Origin: a virus
Virus record (IMG/VR): IMGVR_UViG_3300032238_001186
Location: 1 to 23,742 of that record
Length of the DNA stretch: 23,742 nt
Reading direction: 5' to 3' (one strand)
Part shown: piece after piece, positions 7,847-23,742 of the stretch
Numbering within the stretch: the first letter of the stretch is position 1
Layout: every line of letters begins with the position of its first letter
Translations under genes and position numbers: made by a program
The notes under the pieces: model-generated
The model's input: the letters and a program-made list of their open reading frames with translations, nothing else
Databases searched by the model: none
What the model was told of the DNA's origin: nothing

Positions 7847-9085
7847 TCAAAACTCCAAAATCCATTCAGGGAGAGATCCACCACCAGTTTCATATCCCCA
7901 TTTATCTATAGCAGCACGAAACTCGGGTCCTGGAGTTTTATCAATTGCCTGTCTCATTGCCATAGCACCCGCCAGAGTGCCTCCAGGATGCCCGTGAATG
8001 GCACCTCCACAGTTGGCAAGGAAATCTGTACCAAACTTCTCTGAGGTAGTATTAACGATGCCTGGATGCATTCCACAACTCAATGCCGGAAGAACATTGC
8101 GTTTATGAAGTGTTGCAAGAGTTTGGCGAAGTTCATTTTCATCATCACTCAAATACCCACCCCACATTCCAGCATGAATGGTATCAACACCACAGAGTCC
8201 TGCAAGATCACAAAGAACATCCCAATCTATTCCAAATGCGTGGCGTTTATCCGTAAGAATTTTGTCCCCACTCTTCTGATAATGGATAAACAGTGGCAAA
8301 TCCAGTTTTCTAATTGAATTATAAACGCCAAGACCAGACCAAAAATTAATATGAATACCATTTCCACCATTGTCAGCAACAAACTTAGCACGATCAAGAA
8401 TGGTATGATGATCACCATTAATGCAGAAAGTATAGATGACATTACGACCACAGTTATTAACAATATTTGAAATAAGTTCTACACGATCTTCAAGGCGACA
8501 GAAAGATGGATTTGCGAGAATCTCATCTTCCTTAATAAAATCCACCCCACCATCAAGAAGTTCTCTTACCATCTCAGAAAGAGTTTGTGGTGAAATACCC
8601 GTTTTTGGTTTTACAATGGCACCAGAAAGTGGTTTGTCATAACGGTTGACAAACTTACGAATTCCATCAATACCATTTTTAGGTCCAAGAAACTGTGCTT
8701 CTACATCAGCAGGAAATTCGAGTTTTTGAAGACGGCAAACCTTGAACACATCAATATCCAACTGGCCACCCATAACTTGACAAAGAAGATGCGAAATTCC
8801 GTCACCTTTCCAATCAGTATTTACTTTTGGAAATCCAATTTTTACTACACCTTCCGTAAGTTGTGAGAGTTCATTTTCGTCTGCATAGATAACGCAAGAC
8901 GATAGTTCAAACAATTCATCACTCTCCCAACGATTACGAACTTTTGGATTACCCACACTTTGACCAATAGCAAGATTCCAAGCAGCGTCACGAAGATCGC
9001 CAACCTCACTATATGATTCAATATAATATGTTGCGACTACGCAACGATTTCTTTCTGCTTCTGTTAGTTCTCTAAAAAATTTCAT
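7847..9085 (-). CDS. RuBisCO-like protein (form IV-type RLP)
   Basis: 412 residues, RuBisCO large-subunit fold. SGAIVKPKTGISP (154-166) matches the KPK loop (K159 = spinach K175). GGVDFIKEDE (179-188) keeps the carbamylated Lys and its metal partners (K185, D187, E188 = K201, D203, E204). DTIHAGMWGG holds H304 (= H327), ALSCGMHPG holds S336 (= S379), and GGAIHGHPGG is the phosphate-binding turn. Key carboxylase residues are changed: R295 to Tyr (FIHYQK), K334 of loop 6 to Tyr311, N123 to Gln103. It therefore should not fix CO2. Known RLPs are enolases, isomerases or decarboxylases on sugar phosphates (MtnW, OiaX and relatives). G+C is clearly higher than in neighbours (32 of 60 bases at 7921-7980). 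It overlaps the cupin gene by ATGA. The clade cannot be assigned by eye. Confidence 0.92.
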   Translation of the reverse strand: MKFFRELTEAERNRCVVATYYIESYSEVGDLRDAAWNLAIGQSVGNPKVRNRWESDELFELSSCVIYADENELSQLTEGVVKIGFPKVNTDWKGDGISHLLCQVMGGQLDIDVFKVCRLQKLEFPADVEAQFLGPKNGIDGIRKFVNRYDKPLSGAIVKPKTGISPQTLSEMVRELLDGGVDFIKEDEILANPSFCRLEDRVELISNIVNNCGRNVIYTFCINGDHHTILDRAKFVADNGGNGIHINFWSGLGVYNSIRKLDLPLFIHYQKSGDKILTDKRHAFGIDWDVLCDLAGLCGVDTIHAGMWGGYLSDDENELRQTLATLHKRNVLPALSCGMHPGIVNTTSEKFGTDFLANCGGAIHGHPGGTLAGAMAMRQAIDKTPGPEFRAAIDKWGYETGGGSLPEWILEF

Positions 9086-17171: not shown

Positions 17172-17717
17172 TCATACAGGATGCCACGATAAAGGTTCTT
17201 CTACTTTAGAGTTAATTGAGTTATTTTCAATAGAATACTTATCTAAAAGTTCTAAAGAGTGTGGGGGTATCGGAGATTCTCCTTCTTTTAATTCTCTTTT
17301 TTGTTTTTCTAAAAAATAAATTCTATTCCTAAGTTCTGTTGAAGAATAATTATGCCTTCTTAGGTGATAGTGAAGTTCAATTCCATGATCCATACAATAC
17401 TGTTTTCCAGTAAAGTCTCTATTTTCATACTCTTCACTCAAGAATCTGATATTAATAGATTGAGTTTGAATCAAATTAAGAAGATCTTTTTCAGTTTCAT
17501 AAACTAAAATTTCATCGACATATTTACATGCCTGCAATTGAACATATCTTTCGTAAATAGATTGAGTGGGTTTATTTTTAATCCCAAATCTATCGATTGT
17601 AGGATCTAATTGCAATGCCACCTTTAAGTAGTCACACAGCTCCTTTTCCATTCTGAGCATTGTAACATGTCCAGCATGAAAAAGATCGAATGAACTACAA
17701 TTAAAACCGATTTTCAT
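17172..17717 (-). CDS. TagD/glycerol-3-phosphate cytidylyltransferase-like protein
   Basis: 181 residues from ATG 17717, which shares one base with the upstream TAA (TAATG). MKIGFNCSSFDLFHAGHVTM contains the HxGH nucleotide-binding motif (HAGH). YERYVQLQACKYVDE gives the conserved ER..L....YVD segment of TagD, and LRRHNYSSTELRNRI the late R....ST..(I/L) motif. TagD makes CDP-glycerol from glycerol-3-phosphate and CTP. The C-terminal ~45 residues (KEGESPIPPHSLELLDKYS and after) are an extension not in TagD. A CDP-linked alcohol or sugar is the probable product. The 5' end is repeated as a relic at 22573-22614. Confidence 0.82.
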   Translation of the reverse strand: MKIGFNCSSFDLFHAGHVTMLRMEKELCDYLKVALQLDPTIDRFGIKNKPTQSIYERYVQLQACKYVDEILVYETEKDLLNLIQTQSINIRFLSEEYENRDFTGKQYCMDHGIELHYHLRRHNYSSTELRNRIYFLEKQKRELKEGESPIPPHSLELLDKYSIENNSINSKVEEPLSWHPV

Positions 17718-21643: not shown

Positions 21644-22570
21644 TTATTCTTTATTACTTTCATACCATTCAATTGTTTTGTCAAGTCCTTGTTCTATAGA
21701 AAATCTTGGAGACCACTTCAATTCATGACGAATCTTAGTAATATCAGTTGAATAGCGACGGTCATGCCCAGGTCTATCCTGAACATATTCTACCATATTT
21801 TCCTTCATATTCATACGGTCAAGAATCATTCTAACCAAATCAATATTTTTGATTTCACACTCCCCACCAATATTGTACTTTCTACCTATTCTACCACGAC
21901 TCCAGACCTCTACAAGTGCATCACAATGGTCCTGGACATATAACCAATCACGAACTTGCTTTCCATCTCCATAGACAGGAACCTTCTTGCCTTGCATTAA
22001 ATTTGTAACTGTCTTTGCAATCATTTTTTCAACATCCTGTCTAGGACCATAGTTATTAGAGCAGTTTGTAATGATTGTAGGCAAACCATAGGTGGTATGA
22101 TATGCCATCACAAAATGGTCACTTGCTGCTTTAGATGCGGAATATGGATTTCTTGGAGCATAATTTGAGAGTTCAGTAAAATACCCCTCATCTATAGAAC
22201 CATAAACTTCATCGGTTGAAATATGCATAAACCTTTCAACTTCATACTCCACAGATAGATTGAGAAGATTTACCGTTCCATTAATATTTGTATGAAGAAA
22301 TTGAGAGCAATCCTTAATTGAATTATCTACATGACTTTCAGCAGCAAGATGAAAAATTGTTTTCGGTTTATGCTTTTTAAAAATATATTCACAGTTATGC
22401 TCATCGGCAATATCTGTGGCATAAAACTTTATTCCATCAGGAACATTATTTCTGTCTGCGGCATAAGTCAGTTTATCAATACATATAATTTCTTCATCTA
22501 CAGTATTAATCAAATGATGAAGAAGATTGCTGCCAATAAATCCGGCTCCGCCAGTAACTAAAATAGTCAT
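21644..22570 (-). CDS. rmlB: dTDP-glucose 4,6-dehydratase-like protein
   Basis: 308 residues. ILVTGGAGFIGSNLLHHLI is the NAD-binding site. IDKLTYAADRNN, HLAAESHVDNSI, HISTDEVYGSI (Thr-Asp-Glu catalytic triad region), NPYSASKAASDHFV (YxxxK), TNCSNNYGPRQ, PVYGDGKQVRDWLYV and DRPGHDRRYSTD are all RmlB signatures. It would convert dTDP-glucose to dTDP-4-keto-6-deoxyglucose. It is shorter than typical RmlB (about 340-360). RmlC, RmlD and a clear RmlA are absent from the window, so the product may be finished by host enzymes or used by other enzymes here. It is the first full gene after the promoter at 22637. Confidence 0.92.
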   Translation of the reverse strand: MTILVTGGAGFIGSNLLHHLINTVDEEIICIDKLTYAADRNNVPDGIKFYATDIADEHNCEYIFKKHKPKTIFHLAAESHVDNSIKDCSQFLHTNINGTVNLLNLSVEYEVERFMHISTDEVYGSIDEGYFTELSNYAPRNPYSASKAASDHFVMAYHTTYGLPTIITNCSNNYGPRQDVEKMIAKTVTNLMQGKKVPVYGDGKQVRDWLYVQDHCDALVEVWSRGRIGRKYNIGGECEIKNIDLVRMILDRMNMKENMVEYVQDRPGHDRRYSTDITKIRHELKWSPRFSIEQGLDKTIEWYESNKE

Positions 22571-22572
22571 AG

Positions 22573-22614
22573 TTAATTATTTTCAAATGAACTGCAGTTA
22601 AAACCAATTTTCAT
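22573..22614 (-). pseudogene. 5'-end relic of a TagD-like cytidylyltransferase gene (mini-ORF MKIGFNCSSFENN)
   Basis: ATG at 22614 opens a 13-codon frame ending in TAA, 2 nt before the rmlB ATG. Its first ten residues, MKIGFNCSSF, are identical to the start of the cytidylyltransferase-like protein at 17717. Across these ten codons four bases differ (codons 3, 6, 7 and 10), all silent third positions. So it is not a recent copy of that gene but the trace of a diverged homologue cut off after codon 10. It could also be translated as a short leader for rmlB. Family match is read directly; the origin is inference. Confidence 0.75.
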
Positions 22615-22636: not shown

Positions 22637-22665
22637 ATTATACCAAAAAAGGAGAGTTTATGCAA
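22637..22665 (-). promoter_or_regulatory. Sigma70-like promoter before rmlB
   Basis: Minus strand TTGCAT (22665-22660), 17-nt spacer, TATAAT (22642-22637). The same element recurs before gmd with two single-base differences at most in the shared core. Here the -35 and spacer are also the loop, right arm and T-tract of a terminator hairpin, so one short sequence both ends upstream transcription and starts the sugar operon. Confidence 0.75.
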
Positions 22666-22671
22666 CTCTCC
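22645..22671 (-). terminator. Intrinsic terminator after the endonuclease region
   Basis: Minus strand reads GGAGAGTT, loop GCATA, AACTCTCC, then six T. The eight-pair stem is perfect and is followed at once by the T-run, as in rho-independent terminators. It would stop transcripts coming from the endonuclease and the small gene at 23497-23742. It overlaps the promoter at 22637-22665. Confidence 0.8.
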
Positions 22672-22784
22672 TCTAGGTCTTTCAGGCTCGCCACCAATTC
22701 TTTAACTGGAAATTGGAAACCAGGCGGGAGAGAGTCCCATCCGCACCAACTGCCCTTGAGAGAGGCAGTAAACTCATAACAGGG
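22672..22784 (-). other. GC-rich hairpin block downstream of the endonuclease (candidate structured RNA)
   Basis: About 53 percent G+C over 22681-22770 against roughly a third nearby. Three inverted repeats are visible: ACTGCC/GGCAGT (22749-22754 with 22764-22769), GGGA/TCCC (22726-22729 with 22735-22738) and CCAATT/AATTGG (22694-22699 with 22711-22716). The terminator follows directly. No known tRNA or riboswitch was recognised. A 31-codon frame (22777-22682) crosses it but looks like chance. Could be part of an intron, a 3' UTR element or a small RNA. Confidence 0.4.
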
Positions 22785-23378
22785 TCATATTAACTTAAAA
22801 GATATTCTTTTCCAATTAGGAAAATTTTTAGACAAACATCTATTTCTAATAGATGCTAATGACACACTATACACTTCACTAACTTCATTTAAAGTATTAA
22901 AAGATTTATTATCTATCAAATACTTATATTGATAATTGGTTTTCAAAGGTAAAACTTCTTTTCTTCTTTCTGCTGCTTTTTTATTCCTTTGTTCTCTTTG
23001 ATCTATTGTTAAACTTTGCCAATGAGATTTTACAGAATTACTAATATTTTTTTTATGGTCTTCTGTAATAATTTGCAGTGGTCTGACAATTTTTAATTTT
23101 GTACTGATTTTATTCTTATGCTCTTCTGTTAGTGAAGAACGACTACCAGATTTACCACCACTTTTTTTATTTAACAAATTATTTAAGATTGATATTAAAT
23201 ATTTTTCGTGTTTTAAAGCATTTTCTTCAGAAAGATTTTGTTTTAGGAATAAAATTTTATCTTTGTTTGGGCGAGGAACATTATGATTTTTATGAAATGC
23301 TCTACGCCCTTTACCTTTTCCAATGTAATAAGGTGTTCTATCTTCTCTCAAATAAGCATAAGTATAATAGGTCTCCAT
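22785..23378 (-). CDS. GIY-YIG homing endonuclease with NUMOD3-type repeats
   Basis: 197 residues from ATG 23378 (a GTG at 23423 is the alternative, but it lies before the late promoter). YYTYAYLREDRTPYYIGKGK is the GIY-YIG domain start, with YAY and YIGKG spaced as in the family, then the catalytic Arg in GRRAF and Glu in HEKYLIS. The middle has two NUMOD3-like motifs, SLTEEHKNKISTKLK and ITEDHKKNISNSVKSHW. The C-terminus FNTLNEVSEVYSVSLASIRN resembles a NUMOD1/HTH DNA-binding segment. It makes a site-specific break that spreads its own gene. It stands between two GC-rich blocks, with a T4-type late promoter just ahead. Confidence 0.9.
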   Translation of the reverse strand: METYYTYAYLREDRTPYYIGKGKGRRAFHKNHNVPRPNKDKILFLKQNLSEENALKHEKYLISILNNLLNKKSGGKSGSRSSLTEEHKNKISTKLKIVRPLQIITEDHKKNISNSVKSHWQSLTIDQREQRNKKAAERRKEVLPLKTNYQYKYLIDNKSFNTLNEVSEVYSVSLASIRNRCLSKNFPNWKRISFKLI

Positions 23379-23401
23379 AGTTTTATTTTTAGATGTAAAA
23401 C

Positions 23402-23409
23402 TATTTATA
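23402..23409 (-). promoter_or_regulatory. T4-type late promoter (TATAAATA)
   Basis: Minus strand TATAAATA, the T4 late consensus, with its end 23 nt before the ATG at 23378 of the endonuclease. Late promoters in front of homing endonuclease genes are known in T4 (I-TevI). A late transcript here could only use ATG 23378 as start, which supports that choice over GTG 23423. In AT-rich DNA an eight-base match can also arise by chance. Confidence 0.55.
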
Positions 23410-23421
23410 TGGATTGGCTCC

Positions 23422-23499
23422 ACCAGTGCTTTTAAAGTCTCTCCGTGACTAAAGGGGTTTGCTCCCGACCAGTGCGCTTTTTAAGTCATCCCGAGACTA
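23422..23499 (-). repeat. Two ~31-nt direct repeats with small hairpins
   Basis: Units at 23422-23451 and 23468-23499, 45-48 nt apart in period. On the minus strand each begins TAGTC, has a 7-nt loop, GACTT, a run of A and then GC..ACTGGT. Each can fold as AGTC-7 nt-GACT. The first unit begins on the TAG stop codon of the small gene upstream. Between them lies GC-rich DNA. They may be regulatory RNA hairpins or relics of the endonuclease insertion event. Confidence 0.6.
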
Positions 23500-23742
23500 T
23501 TGTTCCCAATCAAGAATATCATTGGGATCCATATAACAAGGATCGTTGCTCAACCATTTCGCATACTCGATATCTTCCATTGCAGTAGTAAGTTGCATAG
23601 AATTATCGAACAAATAAATGTCATTCCAACGTTTAGAGTAATAATCTTGTTTTTGCATACGGTAATCAGGCATACCGTTGAGTTCAATAATACCTTTTTC
23701 AATGAAACGGTATCCTTCTCGCTCAAGTAGAACTTTTGTCAT
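23497..23742 (-). CDS. Small unknown protein
   Basis: 81 residues beginning with ATG exactly at the right edge of the window, so a longer N-terminus cannot be excluded. The sequence MTKVLLEREGYRFIEKGIIE shows a short beta-like start. The C-terminal half is acidic (MEDIEYAKWLSNDPCYMDPN), ending DILDWEQ. There are no membrane segments and I recognise no family. Codon use looks like normal coding DNA. The next transcribed feature after it is the repeat pair that starts on its stop codon. Confidence 0.7.
   Translation of the reverse strand: MTKVLLEREGYRFIEKGIIELNGMPDYRMQKQDYYSKRWNDIYLFDNSMQLTTAMEDIEYAKWLSNDPCYMDPNDILDWEQ

Follow-up and report, generated by a model that had tools for sequence, protein, structure and literature searches.

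Island border

Occupying the minus strand of the virus record analysed here is a long operon of sugar and glycan genes; the whole stretch (23.7 kb, 23,742 nucleotides) is referred to here as the window. At the operon border, in minus-strand order, are a small gene (23742–23497), an open reading frame (ORF) with weak similarity to GIY-YIG proteins, the wcaG RNA, a terminator and promoter, an ORF of 13 codons, and rmlB. A gene similar to the small one adjoins glycan genes in many Synechococcus phages, and cyanophages are already known to carry large clusters of LPS genes close to hli03, phoH and tRNAs (Sullivan et al. 2010, PMC3037559). The features needed below are:

22680–22777, minus strand: wcaG RNA (Rfam RF01761), full length, 103.3 bits, E = 1.9e-20
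22645–22672, minus strand: intrinsic terminator hairpin and T-run, 9-bp stem, −12.9 kcal/mol, z = −4.4
22637–22665, minus strand: sigma-70-type promoter, TTGCAT, 17 bp, TATAAT; same element upstream of intact tagD in 77 of 171 starts
22585–22614, minus strand: relic head, reading as tagD codons 1–10 (MKIGFNCSSF); 32/32 bases with the tagD of locus L270
22573–22584, minus strand: relic tail, ENN and TAA stop, probably the last three codons of tagD; 12/14-base match, gap alignments
21644–22570, minus strand: rmlB, dTDP-glucose 4,6-dehydratase, intact; TIGR01181 416.7 bits, cut-off 365.1
17172–17717, minus strand: resident second tagD-like cytidylyltransferase, 181 amino acids; PF01467 42.6 bits, cut-off 21

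The wcaG RNA (22777–22680), scored by covariance model against a gathering score of 42, forms a conserved boundary of the island of glycan genes, and likewise precedes the islands of S-SKS1, S-SRM01, S-SM2, SynMITS9220M01 and several IMG/VR loci. Behind the RNA and promoter, S-SKS1 has gmd as its first gene, S-SRM01 a glycosyltransferase gene, and S-SM2 and SynMITS9220M01 other epimerase genes. The promoter that a sequence-only reading had placed at 22637 is present, with a −35 box TTGCAT (22665–22660), a 17-bp spacer and a −10 box TATAAT (22642–22637). Terminator and promoter overlap (22637–22672), the −35 box lying partly within the terminator loop and the −10 box directly after the T-run. 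Promoters of the same kind stand upstream of 77 of the 171 distinct tagD starts; of these 77, 72 have a spacer of exactly 17 bp and 61 show a stem of 5 bp or more at the −35 box. The overlapping element parts the wcaG RNA from the genes that the RNA is thought to control; owing to this placement, the RNA may end an upstream transcript or act by attenuation.

Located between the small gene and the wcaG RNA is the GIY-YIG-like ORF (22785–23423, minus strand; PF22945 below cut-off, phrog_15526, phrog_10829), possibly a homing endonuclease judging by these similarities. Before it are two similar hairpin-like stretches (23420–23500; CACTGGTCGGGAG.. and CACTGGTGGAGCC..), for which no Rfam match was reported and which have similar text in S-SM2 and in L263. 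Elsewhere in the cluster, adjoining cupin-like and sugar-nucleotidyltransferase-like genes, is a gene for a RuBisCO-like protein of 412 amino acids (7847–9085, minus strand). Its best NCBIfam profile is rubisco_III at 196.7 bits, far below the cut-off of 497; it matches PDB 2cwx (E = 2e-39) in an alignment where the K-x-D-E metal-ligand motif lines up, and a PHROG search gave no match. A phage RuBisCO-like enzyme in glycan synthesis, if true, would merit separate study.

A tagD start directly behind the promoter

The 13-codon ORF (22614–22573, minus strand) translates as MKIGFNCSSFENN and a stop; its coding bases (22614–22576) are ATGAAAATTGGTTTTAACTGCAGTTCATTTGAAAATAAT, and the TAA stop (22575–22573) is followed by CT and the rmlB ATG at 22570. 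The gene starting at 17717 opens with ATGAAAATCGGTTTTAATTGTAGTTCATTC, so that the two heads agree in 10/10 residues and in 26/30 bases, the four differences being silent T/C exchanges at third positions. This likeness had been noticed in the sequence-only reading, and re-reading the letters confirmed it.

A closer match to the head is found outside the window. The first 32 bases of the ORF (the head and the next GA) are identical to the intact 165-aa tagD of L270, and match the tagD genes of L238 and of L262 at 31/32 bases each. All three genes stand behind the same terminator/promoter as the short ORF, whose 5′ untranslated region is nearly base-for-base common to L263. Its ATG lies 22 bases past the −10 box; the 77 tagD genes that were scored mostly have 17–22 (mode 20). 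A chance ORF is ruled out by the ten shared residues, the 32 shared bases, this spacing and the shared promoter.

The ORF stops ahead of the HAGH motif (HxGH) of intact tagD, and the catalytic body is gone. Among the 176 distinct MKIGFN starts in all fetched loci, the one in the window is the only short one; pattern scans of IMG/VR records returned 0 further copies of the exact scar, which is known as one copy on one metagenomic contig. Judged from its sequence, the 13-codon ORF is what is left of a diverged homologue of tagD, once situated immediately behind the terminator/promoter. The earlier reading had proposed such a remnant, and the match to L270 behind the same promoter backs it. It had suggested looking in relatives for tagD directly after the terminator/promoter, where intact tagD is indeed found in many, and had named a leader conserved before rmlB as the contrary case, which was not found (1 of 176 starts short, no IMG/VR match). 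A second part of the relic had been overlooked: three codons and a stop that resemble the end of tagD.

Order of tagD and rmlB in related viruses

Intact tagD lies directly upstream of rmlB in 93 distinct viral loci, and the same succession is found in the cultured Synechococcus phages S-B43 and S-H68. The distance from tagD stop to rmlB start is −4 in 53 of the 93 loci and +1 to +3 in 37 (+2 in 26), the rest being slightly farther apart; for the relic it is +2. Relatives of the rmlB in the window are up to 96% identical, and those at 91–96% mostly have tagD in front. One further locus, L009 (AG-345-D19), has an unrelated gene before rmlB and is uninformative on tagD. The order tagD–rmlB is therefore standard, rmlB being the usual downstream partner of tagD, and as the two genes were already neighbours, the loss lies inside tagD.

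In S-B05 (L004, 12001–12351), the tagD before rmlB is reduced to its last two thirds, an unrelated opposed gene standing in place of the first 48 codons; this is either another damaged border tagD or an assembly join.

The probable relic tail and the extent of the proposed deletion

Between the relic head and the ATG of rmlB are 14 bases, GAAAATAATTAACT, that look like the 3′ ends of intact tagD, such as TCAATTGAGAATAATTAATT-ATG in L212 (encoding YSIENN and a stop) and ATTAAAGATAATTAACT-ATG in L101, L217, L237 and L239 (YSIKDN and a stop). The best match, 12/14 bases including the CT spacer, is reached by these five and by L266. At least 12/14 was reached by 154 of 20,000 composition shuffles, a number to be read with the choice of the best of 93 tails and with a stretch of 14 AT-rich bases. 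The mean match over the 93 tagD tails is 7.49, reached by 108 of 20,000 shuffles; of the 645 14-mers that precede an ATG on this strand, a single one attains it, evidently that of the relic. The resemblance suggests that the last three codons are probably the tail of the same tagD, with a chance match possible given 14 AT-rich bases.

When the window was aligned with 78 promoter–tagD–rmlB loci, the commonest single-gap alignment was 459 bp, that is 153 codons, in frame (17/78); in many of the 78 the gap was placed elsewhere because the tail is short. The 459-bp gaps put the join at or near TTTGA/AAAT (22582–22586). A near-repeat is present in tagD, with TTCATTTGA in the heads near codon 10 and TTCAATTGA in the L212 tail agreeing in 8/9 bases. 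None of the loci compared combines the parental head and the parental tail exactly; the breakpoint repeats, drawn from relatives rather than from a direct parent, would fit slippage or annealing.

The resident tagD

The tagD at 17717 has a C-terminal extension and falls into a clade of its own with L207, L208 and L209 (support 99/94). The gt11–tagD–epimerase block is common to the window and these three loci, and is also followed by the aminotransferase gene and the next gene. The substrate profiles TIGR01518 and TIGR02199 both score far below their cut-offs on the resident tagD. The resident gene belongs to a separate clade and is not a duplicate of the lost copy.

L208 is the one relative that combines the gt11–tagD–epimerase–aminotransferase module with rmlB at the border. 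There the promoter-proximal tagD is absent, its start position being taken by the rmlB ATG. When whole records were checked for tagD copies, most of 14 had a single close copy. Two different losses in two module-bearing islands suggest redundancy, two cases being few, and we infer that redundancy with the module tagD probably allowed the promoter-proximal tagD to be lost.

Proposed history and alternatives

We assign a probability of about 0.83 to the 13-codon ORF being a scar that arose when tagD lost an internal segment in frame, with rmlB left untouched. The ancestor would have had the usual cyanophage island border, that is, the wcaG RNA, the terminator/promoter, tagD (about 166 codons) and rmlB. 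An in-frame loss of about 459 bp, for which slippage or annealing between the near-repeats TTCATTTGA and TTCAATTGA or similar ones is the probable cause, would then have fused codons 1–10 with the three final codons and the stop, leaving rmlB and the 2-base spacing unaltered. The loss would have been tolerated owing to the second, diverged tagD in the module, and ribosomes might still initiate at the 13-codon ORF before passing to rmlB.

The sequence-only reading had explained the cut otherwise, by recombination that inserted rmlB and the following genes at the operon border. Border contents do vary, as the differing first genes of S-SKS1, S-SRM01, S-SM2 and SynMITS9220M01 attest, but insertion of rmlB is needless where rmlB normally follows tagD directly; the order in the 93 loci and the two cultured phages speaks against the claim, as does a relic that appears to retain both the last codons of tagD and the rmlB spacing. 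We consider it very improbable, such that the remnant behind the promoter stands and its cutting by rmlB insertion does not. Recombinational copying of the relic head from the resident tagD at 17717 would account for the same ten residues, but 4/30 bases differ from the resident and none from L270, and promoter and 5′ untranslated region are those of promoter-proximal tagD genes, not of the 17717 start region. The four silent differences and the missing common 5′ region rule the head out as a copy of the resident gene, and this origin is exceedingly improbable. A chimeric read or misassembly that linked one tagD start to the region before rmlB is suggested by the single metagenomic contig and by a join at a short repeat, as in PCR or amplification chimeras; the stretch shared at the join, 4–9 bases, is however too short for assembler joining, the product is in frame and the rmlB spacing is normal, making an artefact quite improbable.

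Of a different kind is a selected leader or minigene, which would give rmlB the start region of tagD, with translation restarting 2 bases on; it may add to the deletion rather than replace it. The relic has preserved its reading frame, its stop and the gap of 2 bases, its ATG is as far from the promoter as is usual, and in relatives tagD and rmlB have an overlap of 4 bases or a distance of 1–3, as coupled genes do. Against this, no second record in IMG/VR carries the 13-codon ORF, L208 manages without it with rmlB directly behind the promoter, and the fold around the two starts is ordinary (z = −0.61); a selected minigene is unlikely. With start, stop and gap retained in its sequence, the relic ORF may still load ribosomes for rmlB. 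Rather unlikely as a whole, and to be taken as a tentative extension of the internal deletion, is a scheme in which the module tagD makes the promoter-proximal tagD redundant, repeated but different deletions follow (ATG for ATG in L208, internal in the window), and the minigene is kept as the translation start of rmlB.

Implications

On this evidence, cyanophage glycan islands would keep a constant border, made up of the wcaG RNA and a terminator that contains a promoter, and their first gene would be open to replacement, loss or trimming when a module supplies another copy. The scar preserves the lineage's ancestral order promoter–tagD–rmlB, and intact tagD is still there in dozens of related viruses. 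No description of a tagD remnant at this island border was found in a literature search, which yielded few papers. The scar is a well-documented record of gene loss, the kind of event being ordinary.

Comparison with known systems

Gene remnants arising from deletion between short direct repeats are a general phenomenon. The scar would resemble these in its internal loss with both gene ends probably kept and in the putative short near-repeat at the join, and is distinct in that its repeats are imperfect and drawn from relatives.

S-B43 and S-H68 (MN018232, MK016663) share with the window the terminator and promoter, a tagD start MKIGFNCSSF and the dTDP-glucose 4,6-dehydratase gene that comes next. 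Their promoter is TTGACA-17-TACAAT, and their tagD, intact at about 165 amino acids, overlaps the dehydratase gene by 4 bases, whereas the window keeps about 13 codons and has a second, diverged tagD further on.

The closest island by module, L208/L276 (IMGVR_UViG_3300032218_003441), shares the wcaG RNA, promoter, rmlB (93%), gt11, 181-aa tagD (90%), epimerase and aminotransferase with the window; it differs in having no relic and in missing gmd, fcl and the second aminotransferase in between. In cyanophages, the wcaG RNA has been described ahead of exopolysaccharide genes (Weinberg et al. 2010, PMC2864571), and its placing in the window is the same, with the terminator and promoter added between RNA and genes.
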